Of a stretch of 64,000 bases of DNA, positions 15,606-48,757 are shown piece by piece (positions within the stretch are counted from its first letter, which is position 1; the number at the start of each line of letters is the position of its first letter). Location of the stretch: contig NZ_JYIJ01000019.1 in assembly GCF_001543895.1 (NCBI RefSeq), positions 496,001 through 560,000 of the forward strand, given 5' to 3'. This DNA comes from Carbonactinospora thermoautotrophica (GTDB lineage: Bacteria; Actinomycetota; Actinomycetes; Streptomycetales; Carbonactinosporaceae). The notes below the pieces were generated by a model. That model saw only the letters and a list, made by a program, of their open reading frames with translations. It had not been told where the DNA came from and did not search any database. Position numbers and translations under genes: made by a program.

Positions 15606-15608
15606 ACC

Positions 15609-16176: not shown

Positions 16177-16238
16177 AGCCCCTCGGCCAACCATGGCTGA
16201 GGAAATGTTCCTGTCCAGATCCCGTCGTTCAAGGTCCC

Positions 16239-17459: not shown

Positions 17460-17564
17460 GACGATATATCCCCGTGGATAAGGAAGTAATCTGGTTACTG
17501 GACAAGGAAATACTTGCGCGTCGAGCCGCGTGCGACAATCAAGGGACGACAGGAGTGACCGACT

Positions 17565-18503: not shown

Positions 18504-18609
18504 GGGTATGCATGAGAACGACTCGGACGGACACGCTGTCGCGACTGCCGAAGTGCTCAAGCGTCGGGCATGCTGAGGCCGCCCATCCCTGCGTGGGAAG
18601 GGGCCCCTG

Positions 18610-20049
18610 ATGAGTGATCACGGAACGTGGCGCGAGCCCGCAGCGCCGTGGACTGCCGAGGAGGTAGGGGTGTCGCCCGGCGTGGCCGTGCTGGTGGCGT
18701 CGGTGGCGGCGCTGGGGGGACTCCTGTTCGGCTACGACACAGCGGTCATCAACGGCGCGGTGGGCGCGATCGACGACCGCTTCAACGCCAGCAGCCTCGC
18801 GCTCGGCCTCACCGTGTCCGCCGCGTTGATCGGGTCGGCGGTGGGCGCCCTGCTCGCCGGGCGGCTGGCCGACCGGTACGGGCGGCTGCACACCATGCGG
18901 GTGGCCGCGGCGCTGTTCTTGGTGAGCGCGGTGGGCAGCGGGCTTGCCTGGTCGCTCCTCACCCTGGCCGTGTTCCGGGTGGTCGGCGGCGTCGCCGTCG
19001 GCATCGCCTCGGTCATCGCGCCCGCGTACATCGCGGAGATCTCACCGGCGCGCATCCGCGGCCGGCTGGGGTCGCTGCAGCAGCTGGCCATCGTCTCGGG
19101 CATCTTCCTGGCGCTGCTGGTCGACTACGCGATCGCCGCGGCCGCCGGCGGCTCGATGGCCGACTTCGCCCTCGGGCTGGAGGCGTGGCGGTGGATGTTC
19201 CTCGCCATGACGGTCCCCGCGGTGGTCTACGGGGTGCTCTCGCTCACGATCCCGGAGTCACCGCGTCACCTGGTGGCGAAGGGCCGCATCGAGGAGGCCC
19301 GCGCGGTGCTGCGCCGGCTCCTCGGTGAAGCAGGTCTGGATCACAAGATCGCGCAGATCCGGGAGACCCTCACGCTGGAGAGGCCGCCCAGCATGCGCGA
19401 CCTGCACGGCCCCGCGCTGGGGCTGCTGCCGATCGTGTGGGTCGGCATCGGGCTGTCGGTGTTCCAGCAGTTCGTCGGCATCAACGTGATCTTCTACTAC
19501 TCGAGCGTGCTGTGGCAGGCGGTCGGGTTCTCCGAGGGGAACGCGCTGCTCATCACGGTGATCACGAGTGTGGTGAACATTCTCACCACGCTGGTCGCCA
19601 TCGCGCTGATCGACCGTCTCGGTCGTCGCCCGCTGCTGCTCATCGGGTCGGCCGGCATGGCGGTCACGTTGGGGATACTCTCGTTCGTCTTCGCCAACGC
19701 CCCGCTCAACGCGCAGGGCCTGCCGGAGCTGGCGGGCGCCGCCGGACCGATCGCGCTCCTTGCCGCGAACGTGTTCGTGTTCGCGTTCGGCATGTCCTGG
19801 GGGCCGGTGGTGTGGGTCCTCCTCGGTGAGACGTTCCCGAACCGCATCCGCGCCGCCGCGCTGTCCGTCGCCGCCGCGGCGCAGTGGATCGCGAACTGGG
19901 TGGTGTCCACGACGTTCCCGTCGCTCAAGGACGCCGGGCTGGGACTCGCGTACGGCATCTACACGGCGGCGGCGGTCCTGTCGTTCTTCTTCGTTCTCAA
20001 GTTCGTACGCGAGACGAAGGGGCGGGAACTCGAGGAGATGGGCCGCTGA
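18610..20049 (+). CDS. Sugar-porter MFS transporter (copy 1)
   Basis: 479 aa, 12 predicted membrane helices. Sugar-porter motifs: FGYDTAVINGA in helix 1, GRLADRYGR between helices 2 and 3, PESPRHLVAKGR before the central loop, FQQFVGINVIFYYS in helix 7, DRLGRRPLL, and VVWVLLGETFPNRIRAAA. A proton-sugar symporter such as GlcP or XylE is likely; the sugar is not determined. ATG18610 follows GGAAGGGG. Directly after the stop, 20046-20129 encodes VAIGGTKVAAG, reminiscent of a ROK sugar-kinase start, but stops after 28 codons. Confidence 0.9.
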   Translation: MSDHGTWREPAAPWTAEEVGVSPGVAVLVASVAALGGLLFGYDTAVINGAVGAIDDRFNASSLALGLTVSAALIGSAVGALLAGRLADRYGRLHTMRVAAALFLVSAVGSGLAWSLLTLAVFRVVGGVAVGIASVIAPAYIAEISPARIRGRLGSLQQLAIVSGIFLALLVDYAIAAAAGGSMADFALGLEAWRWMFLAMTVPAVVYGVLSLTIPESPRHLVAKGRIEEARAVLRRLLGEAGLDHKIAQIRETLTLERPPSMRDLHGPALGLLPIVWVGIGLSVFQQFVGINVIFYYSSVLWQAVGFSEGNALLITVITSVVNILTTLVAIALIDRLGRRPLLLIGSAGMAVTLGILSFVFANAPLNAQGLPELAGAAGPIALLAANVFVFAFGMSWGPVVWVLLGETFPNRIRAAALSVAAAAQWIANWVVSTTFPSLKDAGLGLAYGIYTAAAVLSFFFVLKFVRETKGRELEEMGR

Positions 20050-20186
20050 AACCCGCCGCCCTGGCGGGGACGGTCGCCATCGGGGGCACGAAGGTCGCGG
20101 CGGGCCCGCCACGGGCCGAAGCCACCTGATCACCCATCGCCGCGTCGCGCTCACCGCGTGGGGAGCCCGGAACGCGTCAGGAGCTC

Positions 20187-20213
20187 TTAACACGCCGGAA
20201 ACGCGGGGGAAAC
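20187..20213 (+). promoter_or_regulatory. GlnR-like box, copy 1
   Basis: TTAAC, 6 bases, GAAAC, 6 bases, GAAAC: fits the actinomycete GlnR pattern gTnAC-n6-GaAAc with an extra half site. Same as 46336-46362 but now drives a truncated amt. Confidence 0.6.
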
Positions 20214-20310
20214 AGGGTCGCGATACCGCAGTACATGAGGGCTCGACGAGTACCTGCCGGCTCATCCCGCCCTTCCCCTGCAGAGCCTCCCTCCCCGAGG
20301 GGGCGTGGCG

Positions 20311-20736
20311 ATGGATCCCTACCCCAGTTGGGTCAATCCCGGGGACAACGCGTGGCAACTGATGGCCGCGACGCTCGTCGGCCTGATGAGCATCCCGGGG
20401 GTCGCGCTCCTGTACGGCGGGCTCGTGCCACGGAAATGGGTCGTGAACACCATGCTGATGGTGTTCAGCGCGTTCTCCGTGGTGCTGATCGTGTGGGTCC
20501 TGTGGGGCTTCAAGATGGGATTCGGCAGCCCTGTGAAGCTCGGACCCGGCATCCTGGGGAGCTTCGTGGGCCATCCTGCTCCCGTACTCGGGCCCGCGGC
20601 CGAGCAGGGCAGGGCGAGCATCCCGCTGCTGGAGGGCTCGGTCGGTGTCCATGCTCGTCACCGATGCTCCTTCACATTCACATTGACAGGTTCTGGCGAA
20701 TCGAAGGCCAGGCCGTTCTCGTCGAGCGCGTTGTAG
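20311..20736 (+). pseudogene. amt: Truncated ammonium transporter gene (copy 1)
   Basis: Codons 1-109 equal those of the intact gene at 46460 (MDPYPSWVNPGDNAWQL...SIPLLEG). After 20637 the sequence changes to unrelated DNA and the frame runs on for 33 foreign residues to a stop at 20736. Only about two or three of eleven membrane helices remain, so it cannot transport. Confidence 0.9.
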
Positions 20737-32798: not shown

Positions 32799-34091
32799 AT
32801 GGTCGCGATCATTCACTGTGACGAGGAGGAAGCCAGGTTCCTGCGGGAGCGGCGGTCCAGGCCGGAGGACCTTGAGCGTGGCTGGGAGACGACGCGATCG
32901 GCCGCCGTCTGGAAGGGGACGCACATCGCGTTGATCGTTACGGAGGACAAACCGCAGAACCCGGCAATCGCTTACGTCGGTCGTGTCTCCGTTGGGCGAC
33001 AGCATGGAACTTTGGAACGCGACCTGACGGTGACGCAGGTGCATGCGCTTGAGTGGCCGGTGCCCTTGGATGAACTCGCACAAGCTCTACCCTCGCGTGT
33101 ACGCGCACTCGCCTACAAGGCGGAGCCGCTGCCGAAGCGCAGCGGAGAAATCCTGTTGGACGTTCTAACAGGGCTACGGCCAGAACTGACCCTGGTATTG
33201 GAGTCGCTGCAACAACGCAAACCACCGATCGTAGTCCGTAACGCTGCCGCCAGACTTCTCGCGTTCGAGCGCGACGCCATAGGCGTGGCGTTGCAGATGG
33301 CAGACTTCGACCGGTCGCTGCTCGAAGAGGCTCAACTGCCGGAGACGTTGGATGGGCCACTGGGATCCTTCCTTAACTATATGCCGGTTTATGGAGCTCA
33401 TGAGGATGAGTTGATCAACCATGATGCGGCGAGGTTCCTCGACTGGATGGGAGAAGACACCAATCACAGAGGGTGGCGTGTCTATGCCAAGGGGAAGCAG
33501 CGTCTTTTCATCGGCAATGTGAACCGCAAGCCAGCCGAGGAAACGCTCGGTGTCGACCTGATCTACTACCACGTACAACGGCAGAGCTTCGTTCTCGTTC
33601 AATATAAGGAGATAACGCCTGACGGCAACGATTGGTCGTACTACCCTTCCACAGACCGCGACCTCGATTCACAGCTACAGCGCATGCATGCGGTGGACGA
33701 AGCTTGCCGGAAAAGCATAAAGAATCCGAATGACTACCGTTTGTCCGAAACTCCGTGTTGGCTGAAGCTTTGCCGCGCAAACGGTTATATTCCAAGGACA
33801 AGCGAACTCATTCTCGGCATGTACCTGCCCCACGACTTCTTCAGACAGCTTCGGGGCGAAGATATCGGATGGTTCGGGTACAAAACCGTCCCTCGTTACT
33901 TGGACAACACCGCATTCACCCAACTTGTCTGCGACGGCTGGATCGGCAGCGCGGGGACTGGCGACGATCTTGTACGGGAGCAGATCGACGCGAGCCAGGC
34001 CTGGGGCCGAGATCTTATCTTCGCTGTGCTGTTGGGAGAATCTCCGTTCAAGGGTGAGCGGATCAAGCAGCGTCTGGTTAGATTCTTCTGA
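32799..34091 (+). CDS. Unknown protein with nuclease-like core
   Basis: 430 aa, no family recognised. Residues ~200-275 have a PD-(D/E)xK-like pattern: acidic helix HEDELINHDAARFLDW, then strand GVDLIYY (Asp253), and VLVQYKEI with Gln268-Tyr-Lys270 in the place of (D/E)xK, as in Mrr-type enzymes. Sequence here is richer in A+T than either side, a sign of separate origin. It converges on the helicase operon and ends 200 bases from it. I infer a possible nuclease effector for that system; this is not proven. Confidence 0.6.
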   Translation: MVAIIHCDEEEARFLRERRSRPEDLERGWETTRSAAVWKGTHIALIVTEDKPQNPAIAYVGRVSVGRQHGTLERDLTVTQVHALEWPVPLDELAQALPSRVRALAYKAEPLPKRSGEILLDVLTGLRPELTLVLESLQQRKPPIVVRNAAARLLAFERDAIGVALQMADFDRSLLEEAQLPETLDGPLGSFLNYMPVYGAHEDELINHDAARFLDWMGEDTNHRGWRVYAKGKQRLFIGNVNRKPAEETLGVDLIYYHVQRQSFVLVQYKEITPDGNDWSYYPSTDRDLDSQLQRMHAVDEACRKSIKNPNDYRLSETPCWLKLCRANGYIPRTSELILGMYLPHDFFRQLRGEDIGWFGYKTVPRYLDNTAFTQLVCDGWIGSAGTGDDLVREQIDASQAWGRDLIFAVLLGESPFKGERIKQRLVRFF

Positions 34092-34291: not shown

Positions 34292-37200
34292 TCAGCGGAC
34301 TGCCGATGCGAGTCGGTACTCGGACATGAGCGCGTCCAGTTCCCCTGCTGACCGGCTCCGGATCGCCGCCCACTCGTCGGGTGGGATGGGCTCCCGCAGG
34401 GTGGCGAGGTGGGCGGGAAACAGTCGAGCCAGTGGGACGCGGAGCCTCTCCTGGAAGGCCCGCGCGTACGCCCAGGCGCTGGTCGCGTCCTGGCCGAGGG
34501 AATGCCAGACCGTGACCGGGTCGACGTCCTCCTGCCCCTCGTATCGCAACGCGGCACACCCCGCGGCCAGGGTCTCGTGGACCAGGGCGAGGAACCGTTG
34601 CCGCAGCGTGTCGAGCCACCGCTGGTTGCGTGCGGACAGGATCTGCGTCTCGTAGGCGCGCCGGGCGGCTGTGGCCTCGAGGGCGATGGTGTTCGCAAGC
34701 GATTCGGCTTCGCCACGAGCGGCCGGGGGTCCGAGTTCTGCGACGTCGGCCAGGCTGCGGATGGGCTCTGGAGGCGTGCGGTCTGCCCGAACCGCGGCGA
34801 CCACACCGCGGTCTGTAGTCGCGAGCACGAGAGCGCTGCTATCCGGGAGGGAGGCTCCGGCCATGTGGTCGAGCCGCGCCTCGAGGCGCGGATGCCCATA
34901 GGTGGCCAGTGCCGTCCATCCGTCCGGGTCCCGGGACGCTCGGGCAGGGTCGAACGTGACCGGGCGGTCGGGCTCGTCGAGGACGGCCGCGAACCGGTCG
35001 ACGAGCACCTCGCGGAGGTCTTCGAGCGTGACCGGGGCCGGCGGGTGTTCGGGCAGCGGCATCGGGTCCTCAGGAGTGAAGTCGATGCCTTCGGCCCGGA
35101 GCGTGTCGACCTCATCGAGCAGTTGCTTGATGATCTTGTCCTGGGCGGCGCGTCGCTCGCTGCGCGGCGCCTTGAAGATGCTCTGGAACGCCCGTTCGGT
35201 GGCGCCGAGAATCGGCTGGAGATCGCCGAGCAGTTCCCGAAAGTCGTCGATGCGGCTGGCCAGCGCCCGGTAGACCGACTCCTCGACGGTGCCGGGGATG
35301 AAGTAGCTGCGCACGTGCACGACGTCGCGTGCCTGGCCGAGCCGGTCGATGCGGCCGATCCGCTGTTCCACCCGCATCGGGTTCCACGGCATGTCATAGT
35401 TGATCAAGTAGCTGCACGCCTGCAGGTTCAGCCCTTCACTGGCCGCGTCGGTGGCGAGCAGCACGGTGACCCGCCGGGAGCGGATCGCCTCGACCAGGTC
35501 GCGTTTGGAGATCTCCACCCAGCCCTCGGCCTCCCGGAAGACCTGGCCGCCAGCGCCGGTGAAGGTGGCGAGCTGAGAGCGGTACACGCCGACGAGACGG
35601 TCCCGCAGGTCCTCGAGGGTGTCGGTGAACTGGGTGAAGACGATCGTGGAGTGCCCGGCGCCGCGGGCGGCGTCGAGGTCCTGGCGAAGCCGGTTGAACT
35701 TCGAGTCGGTGACGGTGGATATGCGGTCGATGTAGCCGCGGATCTCCGCGATCTCGTCTTCGGTGAGGGGAACGGCCTGGATGTCGTTCACCGTGCCGCC
35801 GAGGCCGGTTTCGAGGGCGTCCTCGGCCTCCTCGAGCAGGTCATCGTCGAGGACGAGGGCTTCCCGGTCGAGCCGGCGGGTGAGCGTCTTGCGGATAGCC
35901 GCCCACGAGGACGTCAGCCGACGGCGGTACACGGTGAGCACGAAGCCGGCGCCGCGGCGGCTGCCGTGGGCCTCCATGAGCCGGTCGATCAGCTCGTCCA
36001 GTTCTTCGTAGAGCCGCTGTTCGGGCTCGTCGAACGGGACCGGCACCGGCAGCACGTCACGGTCGGCAAGGTTTTCCGAGAGCAGGCCCTGGGCCCGGTA
36101 GAGCTTCAGCGTCTCCCGACTGTGACGAGTGACGAACTGGCCTACCGGGCTGAGGGTTCGCAGCCACGTCCGCAGCTCCGCCCGCCCGGCGGGGGAGAGC
36201 TGTTCGACGATCTCCTGCCCAGGCATCTCGCCGGTGCCGAACTTCTCGATGAGCGCCGCCTCGATCACGCCGACCCGTCGGCGGATGCGGTCGAGTACGG
36301 CCTCCTCGGCACCGGTCCGGGGCAGCCGCGGCGTCTCCTGCAGGACCTGGTCCAGCCAGGCCCACGCGGTACGGGCGTCGTCGTCCTTGCCGAGCTCCCG
36401 GAAATAGCGGAGGAACGCGTCCTCGTTGGCGAGCGTGCCGTGCAGCCCGGTGTGCCGGAGCAGGTCGCGCAGTTCGACGGGAGTGACCTGCATCGGGGTG
36501 GCGGTCAGCAGCCACACCGCGGTCGCCGCGCCCTGGGCGCTGACCTTGTCGAGCAGTTCCAGCAGGCGACCGGGGCGATAACGGTCCTCCTCGACGTGGC
36601 TGCGCCGGGCGTGGTGCGCCTCGTCGACGATGAGCAGGTCGTATGGCGCTGCGGCGAGCACGAGCTTCTGCTGCTCGGGCCGGCGGGCGAGGTGGCTGGA
36701 GGCGATGAGCAGCGGATGTTCCGCGTACGGGTTGGCGCCTCGGGCGACCGGGCGGACGTCGTGGGGATGCGCCCCGTAGACCTTGTTCCCGTCCAGGCGA
36801 GGAACCCACAGCCCGAACTTCTCGAACAGCTCGTCCTGCCACTGTCGGCACACGTTGGCCGGGGCGAGGATCAGGGCGCGGCGGACTCGCCCGGAGAGCA
36901 GGAGCCGCCGCAGCGCCATGCCAGCGGAGATCGTCTTCCCGAGGCCGACCTCGTCGGCGACCAGCCACGAGCGGGGGTAGAGGCCGGCCAGCCGCTCGAC
37001 CACCTGCCGCTGGTGCGGGAAGAGCTTCACCCCGACGGTGGCCTCGGGGAGCGCTTCCGCCCCGACGAGCCGCGGTGCGACTCGCAGGTAGTGCGCGACC
37101 GCCGCGTCATCGCCGACCGCGGGCGGCTCCTCGGGGTCCCGTTCGCCGGGCGCCACGTCCGGGGCCAGGCTGATCAGCCGCTCGCGGGCCGCGTCCGGCA

Positions 37201-37885
37201 GCGGGTAGACCCGGAACCCCCTGAGCCGGCCGGCCCAATGCTCCTCGAACTTGTTGGCCCAGAAGCTGAAGTGGGTCGCGGTGGCATCCCAGGAGCAGTA
37301 CACCGAGAAGGACTCGAAGTTGCGGGTCCACGCGGTGGCCGACTCGTTCACCGAGCCCTGGAACGCCACCCCGTCGCCGTGGTCGTCGCGCAGGACGCCG
37401 ATCTTTTCGTGGAAGTACGGGTCGTGCTCCCCGCCGACGAGCGGTGCGCCCTGCTCGTCGACCGCGATCGCGATGCGCACCTCCAGGCGGCCCTCCTTGG
37501 CCAGCCAGGCCAGCACCTCGAGCCGTCGGCGGTCCACCTCGTTGTCGGTCACCAGCCGCTGGGCGAGCCGCTCGGCGAACGCGCCGTCGAGGCTGGTACG
37601 GCCGAGCAGCGCGTCACGGTCGGCGGGGGTGATCTCCGCGCCGCACAGCAGCCGCACCCGCCCGCCGCCGTTGATGAACCGCGACAGGCCCCGGGCGGCG
37701 ACGCTGAGCGCCGAGGAGCGGAAGTAGCCGACCGACCGGTCGTAGCTGGTCGCGCGGGAGAGTACGGGCACGTAGAAGGTCTCCAGCACCCGGTCGCTGG
37801 AGTCGTAGCCGGGCTTGAGGTCCAGCCCCCGCAAGCCCGGCCGTTCCGTGCCGTCACCGACGATCGGGTCGAGCTGTTCGGTCAC
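34292..37885 (-). CDS. PLD-domain SNF2-type helicase
   Basis: 1197 aa. N-terminal phospholipase-D-like domain (GYFRSSALSVAARGL; His159-x-Lys161 in PYFHEKIGV; AFQGSVNES as the Asn/Ser part), then a SNF2/Swi2 ATPase: DEVGLGKT at 311-318, DEAH at 421, LLTATPMQ, and C-lobe TDAASEGLNLQ and QRIGRIDRLGQ. About 300 further residues are helical. Only one HxK half-motif is seen, so the PLD part may act as a dimer or only bind DNA. GTG37885 overlaps the methyltransferase stop. Relatives occur in DISARM-like and other defence loci. Confidence 0.85.
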   Translation of the reverse strand: MTEQLDPIVGDGTERPGLRGLDLKPGYDSSDRVLETFYVPVLSRATSYDRSVGYFRSSALSVAARGLSRFINGGGRVRLLCGAEITPADRDALLGRTSLDGAFAERLAQRLVTDNEVDRRRLEVLAWLAKEGRLEVRIAIAVDEQGAPLVGGEHDPYFHEKIGVLRDDHGDGVAFQGSVNESATAWTRNFESFSVYCSWDATATHFSFWANKFEEHWAGRLRGFRVYPLPDAARERLISLAPDVAPGERDPEEPPAVGDDAAVAHYLRVAPRLVGAEALPEATVGVKLFPHQRQVVERLAGLYPRSWLVADEVGLGKTISAGMALRRLLLSGRVRRALILAPANVCRQWQDELFEKFGLWVPRLDGNKVYGAHPHDVRPVARGANPYAEHPLLIASSHLARRPEQQKLVLAAAPYDLLIVDEAHHARRSHVEEDRYRPGRLLELLDKVSAQGAATAVWLLTATPMQVTPVELRDLLRHTGLHGTLANEDAFLRYFRELGKDDDARTAWAWLDQVLQETPRLPRTGAEEAVLDRIRRRVGVIEAALIEKFGTGEMPGQEIVEQLSPAGRAELRTWLRTLSPVGQFVTRHSRETLKLYRAQGLLSENLADRDVLPVPVPFDEPEQRLYEELDELIDRLMEAHGSRRGAGFVLTVYRRRLTSSWAAIRKTLTRRLDREALVLDDDLLEEAEDALETGLGGTVNDIQAVPLTEDEIAEIRGYIDRISTVTDSKFNRLRQDLDAARGAGHSTIVFTQFTDTLEDLRDRLVGVYRSQLATFTGAGGQVFREAEGWVEISKRDLVEAIRSRRVTVLLATDAASEGLNLQACSYLINYDMPWNPMRVEQRIGRIDRLGQARDVVHVRSYFIPGTVEESVYRALASRIDDFRELLGDLQPILGATERAFQSIFKAPRSERRAAQDKIIKQLLDEVDTLRAEGIDFTPEDPMPLPEHPPAPVTLEDLREVLVDRFAAVLDEPDRPVTFDPARASRDPDGWTALATYGHPRLEARLDHMAGASLPDSSALVLATTDRGVVAAVRADRTPPEPIRSLADVAELGPPAARGEAESLANTIALEATAARRAYETQILSARNQRWLDTLRQRFLALVHETLAAGCAALRYEGQEDVDPVTVWHSLGQDATSAWAYARAFQERLRVPLARLFPAHLATLREPIPPDEWAAIRSRSAGELDALMSEYRLASAVR

Positions 37886-40878
37886 GCGTCCTCGCTGCCC
37901 TCTTCCTCTTCGTCGTAGCCGAGTTCGCCAGGCAGTTTGAATCCGAGCGTGCCCTCGATCTCGAACAGACCTCCCTGGGTCGCCTGGGGCGTCTCCTCGA
38001 CCGGAGCAGGGATGTCCTCGAACAAGGTGGCGCGCAGGCTGTTGAGGATGCGCGCCTCGGGCCGGACGAACTCGCCCTTGACCTTCACCCGCGGGATCGC
38101 GTGCAGCGCCGCCCGGACCAGGTCCCTGAACCGCGGGTCGCCATCCAGCCCGGCGCGGTTCAGCCACGCCCGGGCCGCGGGCAGCTGGCCCTCGTCGTAG
38201 ACGAGCATCAGCGCGTGCAACCGGTCCAGCCAGGTCGGCAACGAGTTCGCGTCCGGATCGAGGCCGCCCGCGGTGTGCCGCTGGGCCGGGGTGAGCAGGG
38301 TGACCGTGCCGCTGCCCTGCTTGATCACCTTGTGCTGCTTGGCCAGGTCGTCCAGCTCCAGGTGGGTCGCGATGGACAGCTTCCGCGCCTCGTCGTAGGG
38401 GAACTCCGCTGCGCCGAAGTCGTTCCAGGCCAGCAGGTACCAGTCGGTCACCCGGTCGAACTCGACGTCCCGGCCGCCGAGCAGGCCGCGCTTCTTCAGC
38501 GTCGCGACCCGCTCCCGCGCCAGGTCCAACGCGGCGTCCGGGCGGAGCACCTCAGGGTTGCCGTCGGCGTCGAGGTCGCCGCTGTAGACCGGCCACCGCT
38601 CCGACAGCACCGACAGCACCGGCCCGTACGTGGCGATCGTCAGGTCCACCCCGGTCAGCCCCAAGTCGGCGAACCGCTTCGCCGCCTCCTCCGCAGCCCT
38701 CTCGACATCGCGGCGGATGTTCGTCCAGTACGCCGGTTCGTTGTTCTCCCGCTTGCGGCAGGCCAGGAAGATCGTCGACGCGGCGGCGTTCTTCTTCGCC
38801 TGGTGCAGCGAGTGCTCGAATTCCGTGTGCACCGGCCACGAGGCCTGGATGGAGAACCCTGCGTCGAGCAGCGCCGCGCCGAGCGTGTCCCAGGCGTCCA
38901 CCCGCTTGTGGGTGAACATCACTGTGAGCACGCCGTCGTCCTTGAGCACCCGGTGCGCCTCGCGGAACGACCACGTGAGCAGTTCCTCATAGCGGGCGTC
39001 GGCGAGTTCGGCCGCGGTCTTGCCGTCCTCCGGCCTGCGGCGTCCCCGGCGCGCCGGCGCCGCGACGTCCTTGAACAGCGTGGGATTGGCGACCGCCTCG
39101 CCGTGCTTGTCGGTGAGAACGAGGTCGCAGAACTCTGGCCAGGTGTCGCGCAGAGCGCGCTTCAGCCAGACATAGAAGTAATCCGAGCACTCCGCGTACA
39201 TCACATTGTCGTAGTACGGCGGATCGGTCACGATGGCGTCGACGGAGGCGTCCGGAAGGGGCAGCGAAGATGCTGAGCCGCGCACGATGCGGGCCTGGGC
39301 GCGCCGCTCGGGGCTGATCATGTCTTCCGGCCGGTACGCGAGCTTCGCGATGCCGGCGTAGGCATCCACGACCTGGTCGACCGCCCACGGCAGCAGGGAA
39401 TGCGCGCCGTCGAACTCCGCGAACGACCACTTGTAAGCGAAGTCATGTCGATCGAATGTGCTGCGAATCTTCGTCTGCGGCGCAATCCAACTCGACAGCA
39501 TGCCATTGAAGTTGACGCTCTTGTCGAGCGCCATCGCGAGATACAGGGCCAATGCCTTCCAGTGATCGTCGCTTAGTTCGGTGCGGGCTTCGGCGATGAG
39601 CTTCCGCAGTTCCTCAAGCGCGGTGATGTTCGTCAGCAGCTGCCTGGGCGTGAACATGTCACGCCAGCGGTGCAGTCCCATGTCGACGCTGCGCTTGGTC
39701 TCCTTGCCCTCGAAGATCTGCTCGTTCGGGACGAGATCCTCGATCTCCCAGCCGGGTAGACGGCGATCCAACTCGGCCTCTGCTGCGGCAACCGCTTTGA
39801 GATCGTCCGAGGTGGGCGCGCGGAACTGCCGGCCCGCTACACCAGGCCGAGTGATAGACACCGCCAGCAGCATCTGCCCGACCCGGCCCTCCTGGCCCAT
39901 CCGACGGATGTAGTCGCCGGAGAACGTCTCGCCCGTCCAGATGCTCTCCGCGGCACCTCGCTTGTACGTCGACCGGTTGCCCCACTGCTTAGCCTCCGGC
40001 CCCTCTACTATCCGCAGCGAGCACGTCCCTGCGGCGCGGTCCACCTCAAGCGCGACTGCCACGTCACGGCCGGCCTTGCCCCGGGCGAGCCAGAAGTCTG
40101 GAGCCAGAGGGGTCGGCCTGCCGGTGGTCGGACATGGGACGGTATGTGCCCAGATGTAGGCGAGGATCGACTCACCGTTCTGTTTGGGGAAGAACTGCTG
40201 CAGCCGCGAGGCCACTCGATCAGCCCACTTGGTGCCCCACTCGCGAATGGTGATCGCGAATTCGGGGCCTAGCTCGGCGGGCAGTGCAACTGTGCCCTGG
40301 AGGATCGCCGTGGCGACCGGGTTGAGCTCGTTGGCGATGGTTTCGCAGCCGTACCTTGCCGCCTCGAAGGGAATGCTGCCGCCGCCGGCGAACAGATCCA
40401 GGACGGTGATGCGATCGCCGACATCAGCGCGCAGGGACGCCAGACGATGGATCCGGTCGATGGTCTTGTCATCCGGGGAGACGGTGAAGGCGCGAGGGTA
40501 CCCATAACCGTTGCCGTCGAGCTTGATGCCTGCTTCGTTCGCCTCCTTGATCTCGGCTCGTGCTGCTACGGGGTCGCCGAGGATACCCAGCGCCTTCAGG
40601 TACCAGTCACGGTATTCAGCCTCCCCGCCGGGAAACTCGGACTTCAGCCCCGCCAGGATCTTGGCCGCCTGCGGATCTTCTGCCGCCTCGGTCTCACTCG
40701 GCCAGGCCGGGAGCAGCGAGGCGAGTACCGCGGCCCGGCTCGCGGTCAACGGCCGCCGTGCCCACCACACGTGCAGGAAGTTGATCGGCGGCAGCGCGCT
40801 CGACGCGCCGCGTTCCCGCATGCTCTCCGCGCCGATGGTCTGGGCGGGCAGCCACTGTTCGATCAGGCTACGGGTCAT
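37882..40878 (-). CDS. DUF1156 adenine-type DNA methyltransferase
   Basis: 998 aa. DUF1156 start INFLHVWWARRPLTASRAA (~32-50), SAM motif DLFAGGGSIP at 161-170, catalytic TDPPYYDNVMYAE near 550, and a late motif DDGVLTVMFTHKRVDAW. A beta-class N6-adenine or N4-cytosine methyltransferase is expected. ATG40878 overlaps the small gene's stop (ATGA) and the end overlaps the helicase start (GTGA), so all subunits are translationally coupled. Probable role: marking self DNA for the system. Confidence 0.85.
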   Translation of the reverse strand: MTRSLIEQWLPAQTIGAESMRERGASSALPPINFLHVWWARRPLTASRAAVLASLLPAWPSETEAAEDPQAAKILAGLKSEFPGGEAEYRDWYLKALGILGDPVAARAEIKEANEAGIKLDGNGYGYPRAFTVSPDDKTIDRIHRLASLRADVGDRITVLDLFAGGGSIPFEAARYGCETIANELNPVATAILQGTVALPAELGPEFAITIREWGTKWADRVASRLQQFFPKQNGESILAYIWAHTVPCPTTGRPTPLAPDFWLARGKAGRDVAVALEVDRAAGTCSLRIVEGPEAKQWGNRSTYKRGAAESIWTGETFSGDYIRRMGQEGRVGQMLLAVSITRPGVAGRQFRAPTSDDLKAVAAAEAELDRRLPGWEIEDLVPNEQIFEGKETKRSVDMGLHRWRDMFTPRQLLTNITALEELRKLIAEARTELSDDHWKALALYLAMALDKSVNFNGMLSSWIAPQTKIRSTFDRHDFAYKWSFAEFDGAHSLLPWAVDQVVDAYAGIAKLAYRPEDMISPERRAQARIVRGSASSLPLPDASVDAIVTDPPYYDNVMYAECSDYFYVWLKRALRDTWPEFCDLVLTDKHGEAVANPTLFKDVAAPARRGRRRPEDGKTAAELADARYEELLTWSFREAHRVLKDDGVLTVMFTHKRVDAWDTLGAALLDAGFSIQASWPVHTEFEHSLHQAKKNAAASTIFLACRKRENNEPAYWTNIRRDVERAAEEAAKRFADLGLTGVDLTIATYGPVLSVLSERWPVYSGDLDADGNPEVLRPDAALDLARERVATLKKRGLLGGRDVEFDRVTDWYLLAWNDFGAAEFPYDEARKLSIATHLELDDLAKQHKVIKQGSGTVTLLTPAQRHTAGGLDPDANSLPTWLDRLHALMLVYDEGQLPAARAWLNRAGLDGDPRFRDLVRAALHAIPRVKVKGEFVRPEARILNSLRATLFEDIPAPVEETPQATQGGLFEIEGTLGFKLPGELGYDEEEEGSEDA

Positions 40879-41288
40879 CGACGATATCCCCCATCGAGCA
40901 GGACACGCAGGGCCTTCAGCCCGTGACGGCGGCGGGTCTGGGCGTGCCAATAGCTGGCCTCCTCGCGGCTCATCCCTGCCACTCCTTCGGCGACACCGAC
41001 GATGCGGTCGATGCGGCGCAGTGGCTTGACCGTCCTGAGCAGCAGTTCGGCGTGGGCGCCGAGGGTCGGGCTGAGCGCGAACGGCTTCGGCGAGGTCCAT
41101 TGGCGACCGCGCAGGCCGGCCGAACGGAGTACCTCCTGAAGGAACGCGGCGACGTGGGTCGCACGCTCGCCCTCCAACCGCACGACCCGATGGCCGCCGT
41201 CGAGGTCGTCGACGGCGACCTCGACGGCGGTGATGCGCCCGTCGCGATCGCGCGTGATGGCGCAGGTGTAGCGCTCGGAGCGGGTCAC
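40875..41288 (-). CDS. Small conserved partner protein of the DUF499/DUF1156 operon
   Basis: 137 aa. I cannot name the function. N-terminal strands (SERYTCAITRDRDGRITAVEVAVDDLDG), then helices (THVAAFLQEVLRSAGL, AHAELLLRTVKPLRRID, SYWHAQTRRRHGLKALRVLL). No catalytic motif. Overlaps the genes on both sides by 4 bases, so it is a fixed subunit and may link the ATPase to the methyltransferase. Confidence 0.7.
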   Translation of the reverse strand: MTRSERYTCAITRDRDGRITAVEVAVDDLDGGHRVVRLEGERATHVAAFLQEVLRSAGLRGRQWTSPKPFALSPTLGAHAELLLRTVKPLRRIDRIVGVAEGVAGMSREEASYWHAQTRRRHGLKALRVLLDGGYRR

Positions 41289-44200
41289 GTCTCCCCTTCG
41301 GTCACGAAAGTGATCGTGCACTTGGTCGGCCCGGTGTCACTGGCCCGCTGGGCGAGCTGGTTGACCTCCTCACCGGACAGCTGGAGAGGATTCTCGAACA
41401 CTGCGTGGATCCGTGCCCGCAGGGTGGCCTGGCGTGGCGCGAGCAGCTGCTTGAGCGCCTCCCGGAGGGGAGCGTAGTCGGTCGGGGAACCGTGGTAGCG
41501 GACGAGCGCGGTCTCGCTCGGGTCCGAGGACAGCGACACGCTGGCTTCCACGTCGTAGACGAGCCGGACGCCCAGGGTGCCCGTGGGGACGATGGTGTGC
41601 AGCCGGGCGAGCTCGGTGCCGGCTCCCTCCCCGACGTGGTCGATCTCGACGACGAGCTCGCGAAGGGCGGCGCGCCCAGCCTCGGCGGCGGCCGTTCGGG
41701 CATCCACGAACGCCTTCCCAGCCGCCCCGGATCCGGTGAACCGGGTCGGGACCAGGACGGTGACACCCCCGCCGGACGAGCCGGAACCGCCAGGCGTGTC
41801 GACCGTGTCGGGGCAGCCGACGCCCGGGTGGCTGGTGCCGCAGAACGGGCAGAGCTGCTCCTTCGGTGCCGGGGCGGAGCCGACCGGGTGCAGGTAGGTG
41901 TCCTCCGCCAGCCGCACGGCGGTGGTGGGCCGGTCCTTGGTCGCCCAGCCTTCATCGCCGCGTTCGGGGTCCTGGTACTCCCACACTCCGTTGCGGACCC
42001 CGGCCGCCACAAGGGCGACCAGCTGGGCCCGGTCGAAGACCATCTTCAGGTCCGTGCGCCGGGCGAACGCGCGCACCAGCTCCATGGTGGGCTGGCTGGT
42101 GGTGAGCAGCGCTCCGAGCTTGGCCTTCACGTAGCCAGGGTCGAGGGGCTTGTCGCCGGCGGCGAGGGTCTTGTCCATCGCCTCCAGCCGCTCGACGATG
42201 GCGTCGGTCTGGTTCGGGCGGACCGACGCCTGGGTCACCACGTCGAGCTCCACTGTCTCCAGTCCGCTCGCGGTGGGCACATACAGCACGTTCACGTGGT
42301 TGCACACCGCGATCCGGGCAAGCAGCTTCGATTCCTCGAGCCGGTTCTTCAGATCGTTCCACTTGTCGTCGCCGAGCGCGGCCCGCGTCTCGGCGTTGCC
42401 CGAGAGCGCCTCGAGCGCGAGGTGCGTGCGTACCGCGCGGACCATCGAGTCGTGGGTGCCTCGGCTCGGGGCCAGGATGACCAGCCGGTTGCGGTACTCC
42501 CGCTTGCCTCCGGCCGCGGTGCGCTCCCACAGCTCACGGACCTTGGCCGGGATGGGACCGTGCGGGTCGACCCCGCGCGCGTCGCCGAAGTCGTCCCAGT
42601 GGAAGATCACCAGCCAGGCGTCGTCGGCGTTGTCAGGGACCTTGGCGTTCTCCCAAGCCCGGCGCACCTTCAACACGCCGTCGCGGAACTGGTTGGCGAG
42701 GATCTTAGTCGCATGCGCGCGGGCCTTGGTGACGCTGACCTCGCGCTCGGCCTCCTGGATCAACTTGACCAGGGACGCCTCGGTGGAGAACCGGTACCCG
42801 CGCACGTCGGAGTGCAGGTACCAGCAGGACTCCTCAAGTCCCTCCAGAGCCCGCTGCATGAGGTTGGGATCGTCGCCCGGGGCGAGCACCGCGCCGTACA
42901 GCTCGGCGACCGGGACCCCGGGGACGTCCCGGGTCAACGAGTACAGGTAGATCGCGGTGGCCAGGCGGCGGCCATAGCGGCTGCCCATCCGCTCGTCGAC
43001 CCGTTCGGCGTGCGACGGCTCACTGCCGGGCTGGGAAGCGACGTCGGCGCGGATCACCGGTTCGAACTGAGGTCGCTCCAGTCGACTGGACAGCTCCTCA
43101 CTGATCACCTTGTCGGCCAGGTCGACATGGTGGAGGTGGATCAGGCCCACCCCGTCAGGCCGCTCGTTCCAGAGCCGCCTGATCACCCGGGCGAGCAGCC
43201 GCAGCGCGCCACGGGTGCGCTGGAAGTTCGGGATCGTGGACAGCCGCTTGTCCAGCACGCGGATCAACGCAGGGTGGAATGGGTAGGTCTGGGTGATCTC
43301 GGTCGCCCATCCCGCCCCCGTCATCCCCTCGGGCAGGTCCAGGCCGCGGTCGGCAGCCGCGTCCGCCGCCGCGGCGTACGCCTCCGCCACCGGGGCCGCC
43401 GCGTCCGCGGGGAGCGACTCGAAAAGCCGCCGGGCGAGGATCTTCGGCAGGTCGACCTCCTCGCTGGGCTTCAGCACCAGCTCCTTGCGGGCCATCAGCG
43501 AGCGGGCCTCGTTGATCGCTTCGAGCACCTCGGCGGTGTCCTCGCCGAACGCGTCCGTGACCTCCGTAGTGGTGATCACCAGCACGGCGCGGGGGAGCGC
43601 GTCGACCGCCTCCATGAGCGCCATGAGGAACGCGGTGGTCTGCCCGGCCAGGGTGGTGTCACCGACCCGCACACCGCGCGCCACCGCGTAATAGCGGGCG
43701 ATCTCGTCGATGAGCAGGAGGGTCGGGGCGTCGCCGAACACCCGCTTGAGCGCCGTCGCGCCCGGCGCGGTGAGCGCCTCGTCGTCGGCCCGCACGTGCT
43801 CGTACCCGGCCCTGCCGGCGACCTGGAGCGCCAGGTGCCCCCACACGGTGCGCGGGGTCACCCCGTCGGTCTCCGGGAAGCTCGTCGCCCCGGAGCTCGT
43901 CCCGACGAACACCCCGATCTGCGAGACCGGATCCTGCGGGAGCAGCCCAGGATCCATGAACTCCGGTGCTCGCTCCCGGCTGAGCTGGCCCTGAGCCGCG
44001 TGGTACAGCGCGATGAGGTTGTGAGTCTTGCCGCCGCCGAGGTTGGTCTCCAGCCGGATCACGCTCGCCCCGTCGGGCTTTCCGCCACCGACCCGGCCCA
44101 GGGCCTCGTTCAGCAGGGACCGCAGCCCCGCCGACGGGTAGGTGGCGGCGAAGAACGCGTCCGCGTCGCCGTACGCGTCCGGTGCCGTCTCGGCTACGAC

Positions 44201-44290
44201 CTCCTCCAAGCTCGCCGCGAACCGCGCCTCGGTCAGTTCCCCCGCCAGCACCTCACGGCGCGGCACCACGCGCTCGAACAAGCTCTCCAC
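41285..44290 (-). CDS. DUF499 large ATPase
   Basis: 1001 aa from GTG44290 after GAGAGGGGG. P-loop NLGGGKTHNL at 83-92, Walker B TLLLIDEIARYY near 190-201, sensor-like VLVITTTEVTDAFGED. The C-terminal third has a possible Zn knuckle CPFCGTSHPGVGC. DUF499 ATPases are recorded beside DUF1156 methyltransferases and helicases in predicted defence islands. First gene of the leftward operon. No PglZ, so not a BREX set. Confidence 0.85.
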   Translation of the reverse strand: MESLFERVVPRREVLAGELTEARFAASLEEVVAETAPDAYGDADAFFAATYPSAGLRSLLNEALGRVGGGKPDGASVIRLETNLGGGKTHNLIALYHAAQGQLSRERAPEFMDPGLLPQDPVSQIGVFVGTSSGATSFPETDGVTPRTVWGHLALQVAGRAGYEHVRADDEALTAPGATALKRVFGDAPTLLLIDEIARYYAVARGVRVGDTTLAGQTTAFLMALMEAVDALPRAVLVITTTEVTDAFGEDTAEVLEAINEARSLMARKELVLKPSEEVDLPKILARRLFESLPADAAAPVAEAYAAAADAAADRGLDLPEGMTGAGWATEITQTYPFHPALIRVLDKRLSTIPNFQRTRGALRLLARVIRRLWNERPDGVGLIHLHHVDLADKVISEELSSRLERPQFEPVIRADVASQPGSEPSHAERVDERMGSRYGRRLATAIYLYSLTRDVPGVPVAELYGAVLAPGDDPNLMQRALEGLEESCWYLHSDVRGYRFSTEASLVKLIQEAEREVSVTKARAHATKILANQFRDGVLKVRRAWENAKVPDNADDAWLVIFHWDDFGDARGVDPHGPIPAKVRELWERTAAGGKREYRNRLVILAPSRGTHDSMVRAVRTHLALEALSGNAETRAALGDDKWNDLKNRLEESKLLARIAVCNHVNVLYVPTASGLETVELDVVTQASVRPNQTDAIVERLEAMDKTLAAGDKPLDPGYVKAKLGALLTTSQPTMELVRAFARRTDLKMVFDRAQLVALVAAGVRNGVWEYQDPERGDEGWATKDRPTTAVRLAEDTYLHPVGSAPAPKEQLCPFCGTSHPGVGCPDTVDTPGGSGSSGGGVTVLVPTRFTGSGAAGKAFVDARTAAAEAGRAALRELVVEIDHVGEGAGTELARLHTIVPTGTLGVRLVYDVEASVSLSSDPSETALVRYHGSPTDYAPLREALKQLLAPRQATLRARIHAVFENPLQLSGEEVNQLAQRASDTGPTKCTITFVTEGET

Positions 44291-44652: not shown

Positions 44653-44758
44653 GGGTATGCATGAGAACGACTCGGACGGACACGCTGTCGCGACTGCCGA
44701 AGTGCTCAAGCGTCGGGCATGCTGAGGCCGCCCATCCCTGCGTGGGAAGGGGCCCCTG

Positions 44759-46198
44759 ATGAGTGATCACGGAACGTGGCGCGAGCCCGCAGCGCCGTGG
44801 ACTGCCGAGGAGGTAGGGGTGTCGCCCGGCGTGGCCGTGCTGGTGGCGTCGGTGGCGGCGCTGGGGGGACTCCTGTTCGGCTACGACACAGCGGTCATCA
44901 ACGGCGCGGTGGGCGCGATCGACGACCGCTTCAACGCCAGCAGCCTCGCGCTCGGCCTCACCGTGTCCGCCGCGTTGATCGGGTCGGCGGTGGGCGCCCT
45001 GCTCGCCGGGCGGCTGGCCGACCGGTACGGGCGGCTGCACACCATGCGGGTGGCCGCGGCGCTGTTCTTGGTGAGCGCGGTGGGCAGCGGGCTTGCCTGG
45101 TCGCTCCTCACCCTGGCCGTGTTCCGGGTGGTCGGCGGCGTCGCCGTCGGCATCGCCTCGGTCATCGCGCCCGCGTACATCGCGGAGATCTCACCGGCGC
45201 GCATCCGCGGCCGGCTGGGGTCGCTGCAGCAGCTGGCCATCGTCTCGGGCATCTTCCTGGCGCTGCTGGTCGACTACGCGATCGCCGCGGCCGCCGGCGG
45301 CTCGATGGCCGACTTCGCCCTCGGGCTGGAGGCGTGGCGGTGGATGTTCCTCGCCATGACGGTCCCCGCGGTGGTCTACGGGGTGCTCTCGCTCACGATC
45401 CCGGAGTCACCGCGTCACCTGGTGGCGAAGGGCCGCATCGAGGAGGCCCGCGCGGTGCTGCGCCGGCTCCTCGGTGAAGCAGGTCTGGATCACAAGATCG
45501 CGCAGATCCGGGAGACCCTCACGCTGGAGAGGCCGCCCAGCATGCGCGACCTGCACGGCCCCGCGCTGGGGCTGCTGCCGATCGTGTGGGTCGGCATCGG
45601 GCTGTCGGTGTTCCAGCAGTTCGTCGGCATCAACGTGATCTTCTACTACTCGAGCGTGCTGTGGCAGGCGGTCGGGTTCTCCGAGGGGAACGCGCTGCTC
45701 ATCACGGTGATCACGAGTGTGGTGAACATTCTCACCACGCTGGTCGCCATCGCGCTGATCGACCGTCTCGGTCGTCGCCCGCTGCTGCTCATCGGGTCGG
45801 CCGGCATGGCGGTCACGTTGGGGATACTCTCGTTCGTCTTCGCCAACGCCCCGCTCAACGCGCAGGGCCTGCCGGAGCTGGCGGGCGCCGCCGGACCGAT
45901 CGCGCTCCTTGCCGCGAACGTGTTCGTGTTCGCGTTCGGCATGTCCTGGGGGCCGGTGGTGTGGGTCCTCCTCGGTGAGACGTTCCCGAACCGCATCCGC
46001 GCCGCCGCGCTGTCCGTCGCCGCCGCGGCGCAGTGGATCGCGAACTGGGTGGTGTCCACGACGTTCCCGTCGCTCAAGGACGCCGGGCTGGGACTCGCGT
46101 ACGGCATCTACACGGCGGCGGCGGTCCTGTCGTTCTTCTTCGTTCTCAAGTTCGTACGCGAGACGAAGGGGCGGGAACTCGAGGAGATGGGCCGCTGA
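44759..46198 (+). CDS. Sugar-porter MFS transporter (copy 2)
   Basis: 479 aa, same protein as the copy at 18610; motifs are described there. It stands upstream of the intact ammonium-transporter operon, with 261 bases between. Two identical copies 26 kb apart can recombine, which would delete the 24-kb segment and leave one transporter. Confidence 0.9.
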   Translation: MSDHGTWREPAAPWTAEEVGVSPGVAVLVASVAALGGLLFGYDTAVINGAVGAIDDRFNASSLALGLTVSAALIGSAVGALLAGRLADRYGRLHTMRVAAALFLVSAVGSGLAWSLLTLAVFRVVGGVAVGIASVIAPAYIAEISPARIRGRLGSLQQLAIVSGIFLALLVDYAIAAAAGGSMADFALGLEAWRWMFLAMTVPAVVYGVLSLTIPESPRHLVAKGRIEEARAVLRRLLGEAGLDHKIAQIRETLTLERPPSMRDLHGPALGLLPIVWVGIGLSVFQQFVGINVIFYYSSVLWQAVGFSEGNALLITVITSVVNILTTLVAIALIDRLGRRPLLLIGSAGMAVTLGILSFVFANAPLNAQGLPELAGAAGPIALLAANVFVFAFGMSWGPVVWVLLGETFPNRIRAAALSVAAAAQWIANWVVSTTFPSLKDAGLGLAYGIYTAAAVLSFFFVLKFVRETKGRELEEMGR

Positions 46199-46335
46199 AA
46201 CCCGCCGCCCTGGCGGGGACGGTCGCCATCGGGGGCACGAAGGTCGCGGCGGGCCCGCCACGGGCCGAAGCCACCTGATCACCCATCGCCGCGTCGCGCT
46301 CACCGCGTGGGGAGCCCGGAACGCGTCAGGAGCTC

Positions 46336-46362
46336 TTAACACGCCGGAAACGCGGGGGAAAC
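46336..46362 (+). promoter_or_regulatory. GlnR-like box upstream of amt
   Basis: TTAAC-n6-GAAAC-n6-GAAAC, 97 bases before the amt ATG. It fits the known actinomycete GlnR consensus gTnAC-n6-GaAAc at the invariant bases, with a third half site in phase. Nitrogen-limited activation of amt, the flotillin-like gene and the glutamine synthetase gene is the expected result. Confidence 0.65.
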
Positions 46363-46459
46363 AGGGTCGCGATACCGCAGTACATGAGGGCTCGACGAGT
46401 ACCTGCCGGCTCATCCCGCCCTTCCCCTGCAGAGCCTCCCTCCCCGAGGGGGCGTGGCG

Positions 46460-48757
46460 ATGGATCCCTACCCCAGTTGGGTCAATCCCGGGGACAACGC
46501 GTGGCAACTGATGGCCGCGACGCTCGTCGGCCTGATGAGCATCCCGGGGGTCGCGCTCCTGTACGGCGGGCTCGTGCCACGGAAATGGGTCGTGAACACC
46601 ATGCTGATGGTGTTCAGCGCGTTCTCCGTGGTGCTGATCGTGTGGGTCCTGTGGGGCTTCAAGATGGGATTCGGCAGCCCTGTGAAGCTCGGACCCGGCA
46701 TCCTGGGGAGCTTCGTGGGCCATCCTGCTCCCGTACTCGGGCCCGCGGCCGAGCAGGGCAGGGCGAGCATCCCGCTGCTGGAGGGCGCCGCACCGGAGTT
46801 CCGGTTCCCGCAGTCGTCGCTGGTCTACTTCCACTTCGCGTTCGCCGCGATCACGCCGGTGCTGCTCCTCGGCAGCCTGATCGGCCGGATCAGCTTCAAG
46901 GCCTGGCTGCTCTTCGTCCCGCTGTGGTCGACGCTGGCCTACTCGGTCAACGCGTTCCTCCTGTGGGGTGGCGGCTTCTGGGCTCAGCAGGGCGCCCTGG
47001 ACTACAGCGGTGGCTACGTCATTCACCTGGCGGCCGGGACATCCGGGTTCGTCGCCGCAGCCGTCATCGGGCCCCGGCTCGCCCGCGACCGCGCTCACGG
47101 CGTACCCAACAACCTGATGATGGTCGCGGCCGGCGCCGGGATCCTGTGGATCGGCTGGAACGGCTTCAACGGCGGCGACATGTACTTCGCCGGCGCGAAC
47201 GCCGCCACGGCGGTGCTCAACACTAACCTCGCCGCCGCCGCTGCCCTGCTGACGTGGGTCGTGCTGGACATGACCTTCGGCCCGCAGCGCAAGCCCACCT
47301 TCCTCGGCTCGGTGAACGGCATGATCGCCGGGCTGGTCGCGATCACCCCGGGAGCCGGCTATTGCGACGGCGTCGGGGCGCTCCTCACCGGTCTGATCGC
47401 CTCCGCCGTGGTGTGGCTGTCGTGGAACAAGCTGAGCCGGCTCCCGCTCTTCAGGCGGGTCGACGACGCGCTCGGCGTCTTCCACACCCACGGCGTGTCG
47501 GGTCTGGTCGGCGGCATGCTGATCGGCCTGTTCGCCGATCCCAGGGTCATCGTCTACCTCGGCGCAGGCGGCGCGGAAGACGTCTCGTTCAGCGGCCTCT
47601 TCCACGGCAACCCGAGGCAGCTCGTGTGGCAGGCCGGCGCCGCTGCCACGATCATCGCCTGGGACGCGCTCGTGACCTTCGTCATCCTCAAGGCGCTCGG
47701 GCTCTTCATGTCACTGCGCGTCCCAGAAGAGGCGCTCCCCTCCGGTGACCTCGCCGTCCACGACGAAGAGGCCTACCCCACCGAGACGATGGTCGCCGAG
47801 GCGGCGAGGTCGACGCGCAGCGGCGCGGCTGCCGTACCCGCGGAGCCGCACCACACCGGGGTGCGGGTACGGCTGGCGCGCAACCCGGAGTCGGGTAGGC
47901 CGGACGCGCCGCCGTACTTCTTCGTGGTGGAGGCGCCGGGGTCGCACGCTCGCCTGCCGGTGCGGCGGCAGGTCACCCCGGGAGACTCCTACCGCAAAGA
48001 GATCTACCGGACCGAGCTTCTCGGCCAGATGGTGGAGCGTGGGAACCTCCCGTCGCTGGAGGCCGCGGTGCGCCAGGTGCTCGCCGGGATGGCGCCGGAG
48101 GGGACGGCGCCCGGGTACGTGCTGCGCGGAGCCGCCGACACGTTCATCCCGGTCTTCCGGCAGGGCCGGGTCTTCCGCGCTCTGGTGCAGGATCGCTGGT
48201 TGGAAGAGCGCGATCTGAGCGCGTTGCGCGCAGCGGCCACCACGCGCCTGACGGGCCGCGGGAGGCCCACGGGCGACCTCACCGTGCTGTGCGTCGACCC
48301 GGGAGACCTCAGCGGCGTCCCGCCGGTCCTCGCGTTCAGCCACCGCGAGGTGTGGGTCCCGGCCTTCCCCACCCCCGCCGGCCGGCTCCGGGTCGAGGTG
48401 GCCGGCGAGGAGGTCGAGGCCGAAGCCGGACTCTCCGGGGTGCTCGCCCTGCGCGGCGAGGTCGCGCGGCTCGGGCACGAGTCCGGGCGGTTGTACAACC
48501 CGCTCGACCTGGCCGTGACCGGGATCTCCGCCGGGCTGTGGGCGAGCTGGTCGGATGAGCTCGGCCCGGTGGAGGAGCTGTCGGTCGGCTGGCGGGAGCA
48601 CCCGGTGCGGACGTATCGGTACGGCGAGGCGACGCTCGCCGCCATGACCGGCCCGGACGGCAAGGTGAGCGTGTTGTTCGGCAGGGACAGGTTTGACCTT
48701 CTGGCCCGAATCGAGACGGCGACCCGCGCCGGCGAGGCCGGCACGGCAGTGCGGTGA
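46460..48757 (+). CDS. amt: Ammonium transporter with large C-terminal extra domain
   Basis: 765 aa, where Amt proteins usually have 400-480. Residues ~1-445 are a normal Amt channel: DYSGGYVIHLAAGTSG (signature Asp and first pore His) and FHTHGVSG (second pore His), eleven helices. After ~480 comes a soluble region of ~285 residues (PPYFFVVEAPGSHARLPVRRQV, GYVLRGAADTFIPVFRQGR, YNPLDLAVTGISAGLWASWSDELG) that I cannot assign. ATG46460 has the better-spaced GAGGGG than GTG46454. No glnK follows; instead the flotillin-like gene begins 27 bases later. Confidence 0.85.
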   Translation: MDPYPSWVNPGDNAWQLMAATLVGLMSIPGVALLYGGLVPRKWVVNTMLMVFSAFSVVLIVWVLWGFKMGFGSPVKLGPGILGSFVGHPAPVLGPAAEQGRASIPLLEGAAPEFRFPQSSLVYFHFAFAAITPVLLLGSLIGRISFKAWLLFVPLWSTLAYSVNAFLLWGGGFWAQQGALDYSGGYVIHLAAGTSGFVAAAVIGPRLARDRAHGVPNNLMMVAAGAGILWIGWNGFNGGDMYFAGANAATAVLNTNLAAAAALLTWVVLDMTFGPQRKPTFLGSVNGMIAGLVAITPGAGYCDGVGALLTGLIASAVVWLSWNKLSRLPLFRRVDDALGVFHTHGVSGLVGGMLIGLFADPRVIVYLGAGGAEDVSFSGLFHGNPRQLVWQAGAAATIIAWDALVTFVILKALGLFMSLRVPEEALPSGDLAVHDEEAYPTETMVAEAARSTRSGAAAVPAEPHHTGVRVRLARNPESGRPDAPPYFFVVEAPGSHARLPVRRQVTPGDSYRKEIYRTELLGQMVERGNLPSLEAAVRQVLAGMAPEGTAPGYVLRGAADTFIPVFRQGRVFRALVQDRWLEERDLSALRAAATTRLTGRGRPTGDLTVLCVDPGDLSGVPPVLAFSHREVWVPAFPTPAGRLRVEVAGEEVEAEAGLSGVLALRGEVARLGHESGRLYNPLDLAVTGISAGLWASWSDELGPVEELSVGWREHPVRTYRYGEATLAAMTGPDGKVSVLFGRDRFDLLARIETATRAGEAGTAVR

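Follow-up and report, generated by a model that had tools for sequence, protein, structure and literature searches.

Operons centred on a DUF499 ATPase have been described, as BREX-related (BR) or Hma systems, in papers from 2013 to 2026. Three DUF499-centred BR types are distinguished in PMC12839542 (Rakesh & Krishnan 2026). Type-1 corresponds to Hma (PMC8565338, Payne 2021) and has three genes; Type-2 additionally has DUF3780, found as a stand-alone gene in 98% of the Type-2 taxa, and a helicase whose N-terminus bears an HKD nuclease instead of Tudor; and Type-3 adds PglZ and iSTAND. The same work regards BR systems as restriction-modification (RM)-like and includes a phage-defence experiment in which the Type-1 helicase was examined. 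Restriction had been predicted in 2020 for an EVE-linked COG1743-DUF499-SWI2/SNF2-nuclease operon, some of whose helicases are PLDc-fused (PMC7641849).

Here, we analysed a cassette in a 64,000-nucleotide stretch of Carbonactinospora thermoautotrophica (the window, meaning this whole stretch), whose closest described kind is BR Type-2 and whose small protein is DUF7680. This family is not mentioned in the main text of PMC12839542, although such loci may be counted in its supplements.

A four-gene cassette of the DUF499-centred kind

The cassette occupies a minus-strand block (44290-34292) of four genes joined by three 4-bp stop/start overlaps:

44290-41285, minus strand: DUF499 ATPase gene, 1001 aa, GTG start
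41285..41288, minus strand: overlap GTGA, DUF499 stop / DUF7680 start
41288-40875, minus strand: DUF7680 gene, 137 aa, GTG start
40875..40878, minus strand: overlap ATGA, DUF7680 stop / DUF1156 start
40878-37882, minus strand: DUF1156 methyltransferase (MTase) gene, 998 aa, ATG start
37882..37885, minus strand: overlap GTGA, DUF1156 stop / helicase start
37885-34292, minus strand: HKD(PLD)-SNF2 helicase gene, 1197 aa, GTG start

All four ORFs are open at these coordinates, and their coding status is backed by GC3 periodicity (codon-position GC). The original prediction had each gene overlapping the next by four bases, which is what we found, but its further claim that the subunits are made in fixed ratio went too far, since the overlaps suggest translational coupling only and the exact -4 overlap at the DUF499/DUF7680 junction is not universal, being seen in 25/69 relative loci.

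The profile matches of the four proteins lie well outside the range of chance. Judged from its profile matches (Pfam DUF499 1.3e-40, PADLOC HmaC 2.3e-85, PADLOC DUF499 1.6e-54, and NCBIfam NF042962 under its cut-off), the gene 1 product is a DUF499 ORC/CDC6-like AAA+ ATPase, BrxC-like, with intact Walker A (GGGKTH) and Walker B (IDE) motifs; GGGKTH and the Walker B residues DE are essentially invariant in 64/64 relative ATPases. Gene 3 matches Pfam DUF1156 (3.1e-16), N6_N4_Mtase and PADLOC HmaB (4e-81), and its product is a predicted DUF1156-type amino (N6-adenine) DNA methyltransferase, with motif I DLFAGGGSIP and motif IV DPPYYD, the DPPY being kept in 69/69 relatives. The predicted gene 4 product unites an HKD (PLD-family) nuclease and a SWI2/SNF2 helicase in one chain (NCBIfam PLD-helicase NF042964 1.5e-104, under cut-off; PADLOC PLD_Helicase 2.3e-75), in which the motifs HxK...D plus GSxNE, DEVGLGKT, DEAH and QRIGRIDR were found; the HKD residues (HxK...D and GSxNE) are essentially invariant in 58/58 relative helicases. 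The helicase core is RapA-like by PDB sequence match, and phmmer returned no solved relatives of the DUF499 protein or the MTase. Given that the catalytic residues conserved in relatives are all present in the window copy, the cassette is predicted to be active. Scores with the NCBIfam "anti-phage-associated" models NF042962-NF042964 are all far under the curated cut-offs, so those models would not name it.

The tripartite BR core (DUF499 ATPase, DUF1156 N6-MTase and SWI2/SNF2 helicase) is present in one operon. As in BR Type-2, the gene order is DUF499 - small protein - DUF1156 MTase - HKD/SNF2 helicase, the helicase has the N-terminal HKD domain, the small protein shares both the gene slot and the predicted order of secondary-structure elements, and PglZ is missing (no match among 22 window proteins with PADLOC). 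The lack of a PglZ match also sets the cassette apart from BR Type-3. Unlike BR Type-2, the small protein is DUF7680 instead of a stand-alone DUF3780, the proteins stay under all three NCBIfam cut-offs, the MTase falls in a different clade and, with the ATPase, scores nearer Hma/Type-1, and the helicase is longer (mostly ~1030-1320 aa in DUF7680 systems versus ~900-940 aa in Type-2). With DUF3780 as such missing and the architecture matching, we filed the cassette as a Type-2-related variant and not as a Type-2 member.

In PADLOC, gene 1 matches HmaC best and gene 3 HmaB; Hma/Type-1 nonetheless differs in having three genes only, in the order helicase-MTase-ATPase, with no small subunit, no N-terminal HKD and an often HEPN-fused DUF499. 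The systems of PMC7641849 share all three core proteins with the cassette, some with the PLDc-fused form of the helicase, and a restriction role is predicted for them, but no small DUF7680 subunit is described in the passages considered, where EVE is a separate partner. BREX Type-3 (BrxC, PglXI, BrxHII) has distantly homologous MTase and helicase proteins, whereas the cassette is without PglZ and BrxA/B/F and has its HKD nuclease fused to the helicase. Two earlier statements on the helicase need revision: classical nuclease subunits were said to be absent, yet the HKD domain is a predicted nuclease; and the fusion of PLD and helicase, which is real, is typical of BR Type-2 and not an unusual trait.

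The DUF7680 subunit and its conservation

The 137-aa protein matches Pfam DUF7680 (PF24728, 1.5e-32), its sole Pfam match above cut-off. The DUF7680 alignment is too variable for scanning genomes, and thus the genome collection was scanned with the MTase alignment, the 80 loci obtained being the best 80 of at least 545 relatives, a sample biased towards the window's own lineage. Within these best 80 of at least 545, nearly all loci with an HKD-helicase also carry DUF7680, in the same order. Together with plasmid and other loci, 72 loci with DUF7680 and MTase were available. The four genes co-occur as a conserved set, a point that the original prediction had left to a neighbourhood search: the full order DUF499-DUF7680-DUF1156-helicase was found in 63/72 loci, across bacteria and haloarchaea. 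Seven of the remaining nine are without one gene (mostly contig ends), in one the MTase lies on the opposite strand, and in one a weak additional helicase match occurs upstream. DUF499 and DUF7680 lie at most 30 bp apart in 64/69 loci, and the HKD domain is present on the helicase of DUF7680 loci wherever enough helicase sequence exists. Loci without DUF7680, truncated ones aside, are mostly helicase-MTase-DUF499 with no HKD domain, that is, Type-1.

The hosts belong to Actinomycetota, Chloroflexota, Acidobacteriota, Pseudomonadota, deltaproteobacteria, Cyanobacteriota, Planctomycetota, Bacillota and haloarchaea, with many relatives on plasmids of haloarchaea, cyanobacteria and Rhodococcus. 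Per genome, DUF7680 is rare: it was found in 3/396 Actinomycetota (DUF3780 in 1/296) and in 4/299 genomes of the phylum of a Sphingomonas, the centre genome counted. Phage records yielded no DUF7680, and IMG/VR a single occurrence. One Pseudomonadales DUF7680 cassette (L046) has very large insertions of about 8.9 and 4.6 kb, the first ahead of the MTase and the second behind it (1082-9975 and 13036-17523). The small proteins of two odd loci (L164 and L165) match neither the DUF7680 nor the DUF3780 profiles; in L165, on a Citrobacter freundii plasmid, DUF499/DUF1156/SNF2 genes enclose SIR2 and ATP-binding genes, and with two such non-matching proteins this locus is possibly a further variant.

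All 67 aligned small proteins of the relatives match DUF7680 and none matches DUF3780 (Pfam, 1e-3). Profile comparison of the two families with hhalign gave a probability of 90 (E 1.6e-6), of 84.5 (E 7e-6) with other alignments and of 81 (E 1.2e-5) with a stricter column choice; under the stricter columns, 200 column-shuffled decoys reached a maximum probability of 2.3 and the reversed profile 0.5. The AlphaFold2 model of DUF7680 (pLDDT 92) has the order strand-strand-strand-helix-strand-helix-helix-helix-helix (EEEH-E-HHHH), and that of DUF3780 (pLDDT 84) has the same element order plus one terminal helix, in agreement with the four strands and five helices given in PMC12839542. In eleven DUF3780 loci, the small gene directly follows DUF499 and the overall order is mostly the same as in DUF7680 loci. 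Based on the profile match and the predicted element order, DUF7680 is probably a remote homologue of DUF3780. When the DUF7680 model was searched with Foldseek, neither PDB nor BFVD gave anything with E < 0.001, and a single, weak ribosomal-protein match of the alignment (PDB sequence search, E 0.0076) was taken as chance.

The 137-aa partner had been called uncharacterised, which holds as regards a functional description but overlooks its Pfam family, its constant slot and its probable homologue. HKD-helicase BR systems of two domains of life consistently have this small gene between DUF499 and DUF1156, and the small subunits are probably one superfamily under two Pfam names. An unnamed ORF becomes a testable fourth subunit, and DUF7680 a marker for defence-finding tools, such systems now scoring under curated cut-offs.

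Placement of the DUF7680 systems

In the MTase tree, the DUF7680 systems form one clan (69/69, support 0.986), and the DUF3780 (10/10, support 1.0) and Type-1 (13/13, support 0.999) MTases form clades of their own. After six more Type-1 loci from plasmids had been added and BREX-3 PglXI used as root, DUF7680 joined Type-1 in this tree (support 0.972). The helicase tree, rooted on BrxHII, joined DUF7680 and DUF3780 instead (0.889), with DUF3780 nested inside (0.871), and in the unrooted ATPase tree the DUF3780 ATPases attach inside the DUF7680 ones (0.877); a BrxC outgroup was sought for it but not recovered. By identity and PADLOC scores, the window ATPase is nearer Type-1. The MTase tree thus differs from the helicase and ATPase trees, and the proteins disagree on the placement of DUF7680, a conflict that could come from long-branch effects or MTase exchange.

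We tentatively propose, at less than even odds, that the DUF7680 systems might be an unlisted deep BR lineage of bacteria and archaea, with the DUF3780 Type-2 systems as a derived offshoot, and that the DUF7680/DUF3780 superfamily might be the ancestral fourth subunit, paired with HKD-helicase effectors and setting which DNA is attacked. A possible alternative, also at less than even odds, is that these are ordinary BR Type-2 systems with a diverged DUF3780, without a separate lineage, and that DUF7680 is simply a poorly matched DUF3780. The common slot, gene order and HKD-helicase architecture, the significant profile match and the predicted element order all agree with it, as does the grouping of DUF3780 with or inside DUF7680 in the helicase and ATPase trees. 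Against it stand the complete lack of Pfam DUF3780 matches among the 67 DUF7680 proteins, the separate and well-supported MTase clades, with DUF7680 nearer Type-1 than DUF3780 in the rooted tree, and the PADLOC scores of the window ATPase and MTase, which are higher with Hma than with the DUF3780-linked models.

Predicted activity and genomic setting

With a probability of about 0.8, we read the cassette from its sequence as a four-subunit RM-like defence system of the DUF499-centred BR/Hma kind, a variant lineage with a DUF7680 small subunit. It is probably a methylation-guided restriction system of BREX-related kind. The DUF1156 methyltransferase would mark adenines at the target site in host DNA, and the ORC/CDC6-like ATPase would load on DNA and scan for unmarked or foreign-modified sites together with the small DUF7680, which would serve as reader or specificity subunit. 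On a positive call, the ATPase would pass the DNA to the SWI2/SNF2 motor for translocation, during which the N-terminal HKD domain of the helicase would cut, probably as a dimer.

A target-reading or specificity role seems the most likely one for DUF7680. Three of the 67 DUF7680 proteins also carry an ASCH modified-base-reader domain, and parallel fusions of DUF3780 to ASCH/RAMA are reported in PMC12839542, both of which point to nucleic-acid reading and make it unlikely that DUF7680 is instead a regulator or inhibitor of the complex. Its small size, usually single domain and probable translational coupling would suit such a regulator, as would the lack of a structural neighbour in PDB or viral models; regulators, however, are often encoded upstream, whereas the DUF7680 gene sits inside the operon, straight after DUF499.

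The cassettes of the relatives are frequently opened by other genes, the gap exceeding 300 bp between DUF7680 and the MTase in 25/71 loci and between the MTase and the helicase in 23/66. Genes inserted between the core genes encode IetS, OLD/GajA/AriA-like ATPases, GmrSD, a C5 methylase, DarT plus a Macro domain, a Schlafen-type protein and a ThiF/multiubiquitin/JAB set. The known defence genes embedded in these cassettes are good circumstantial evidence for defence, and since many of them are known anti-phage or anti-invader genes, they also argue against the cassette being an addiction or anti-plasmid/selfish module that would stabilise its element, with the methyltransferase as antitoxin. 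We consider this latter reading quite improbable, even with many relatives plasmid-borne and such operons argued in PMC7641849 to resemble TA systems; as RM-type modules often do both, it is also compatible with defence.

A DISARM-like system, in which a DrmD-like helicase and a PLD (DrmC-like) partner would exert a methylation-dependent block of incoming DNA, is very hard to credit: the cassette does have a DrmD-like SNF2 helicase (PADLOC 5.8e-67, NCBIfam 7.2e-76), a DNA methyltransferase and a PLD domain, but PLD_Helicase and NF042964 match the helicase better, the PLD domain is part of the helicase, DISARM has nothing that corresponds to DUF499 or DUF7680, the relatives hold the BR and not the DISARM gene order, and no separate DrmA, DrmB (DUF1998) or DrmC was found among the window proteins scanned with PADLOC, so DISARM membership was rejected. 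The earlier description as DISARM-like gives way to DUF499-centred BREX-related/Hma systems as nearest kin (PMC12839542, PMC8565338 and PMC7641849), while its picture of a defence-type set of methyltransferase, ATPase and PLD-helicase without PglZ or DrmA/DrmB agrees with the family matches and the PADLOC scan.

Two perfect 2,134-bp direct repeats enclose the 24 kb (20638-44652) in which the cassette is found; their similarity extends ~125 bp further upstream at lower identity. Features around the cassette are the following:

7293-9374: further MTase-like ORF
9308-11008: MTase_I, match 9e-193
12200-15406: REase_I, match 1e-267
18504-20637: left direct repeat, with an MFS sugar-porter gene and the 5' part of an Amt/ammonium transporter gene, truncated at 20637
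32799-34091, plus strand: gene for a 430-aa protein, convergent with the helicase gene
44653-46786: right direct repeat, identical 2,134-bp copy; the Amt gene on this side is intact

The probable integrated element of the original prediction has partial backing from the perfect repeats on either side, but no integrase was found among the ORFs inspected in 20638-44652. Order-level relatives gave no contiguous match across the repeat in an empty-site comparison. Integration through recombination between homologous segments, segmental duplication or an assembly effect are possible origins of the flanked stretch.

A DDE transposase fragment lies near the left repeat (15672-16169, minus strand). 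With Type I restriction-modification genes at ~7.3-15.4 kb (7293-15406), the region can be regarded as a wider defence island. Between 21471 and 32695, genes for an APH-like phosphotransferase, an XRE/TPR regulator, NUDIX, kinase-like, DUF4254-nucleotidyltransferase, phosphoribosyltransferase-like, heptosyltransferase-like (GT9), SDR and histidine-phosphatase-like proteins form a cluster with a putative role in sugar/nucleotide biosynthesis or modification. The 430-aa protein has no Pfam or PADLOC match and was ruled out as a member of the system, as no homologue occurs in any relative locus. Distant homologues of it are found on plasmids, one of them (L170) adjoining an ATP-binding protein/UvrD-helicase pair and a RES/Xre toxin-antitoxin pair.
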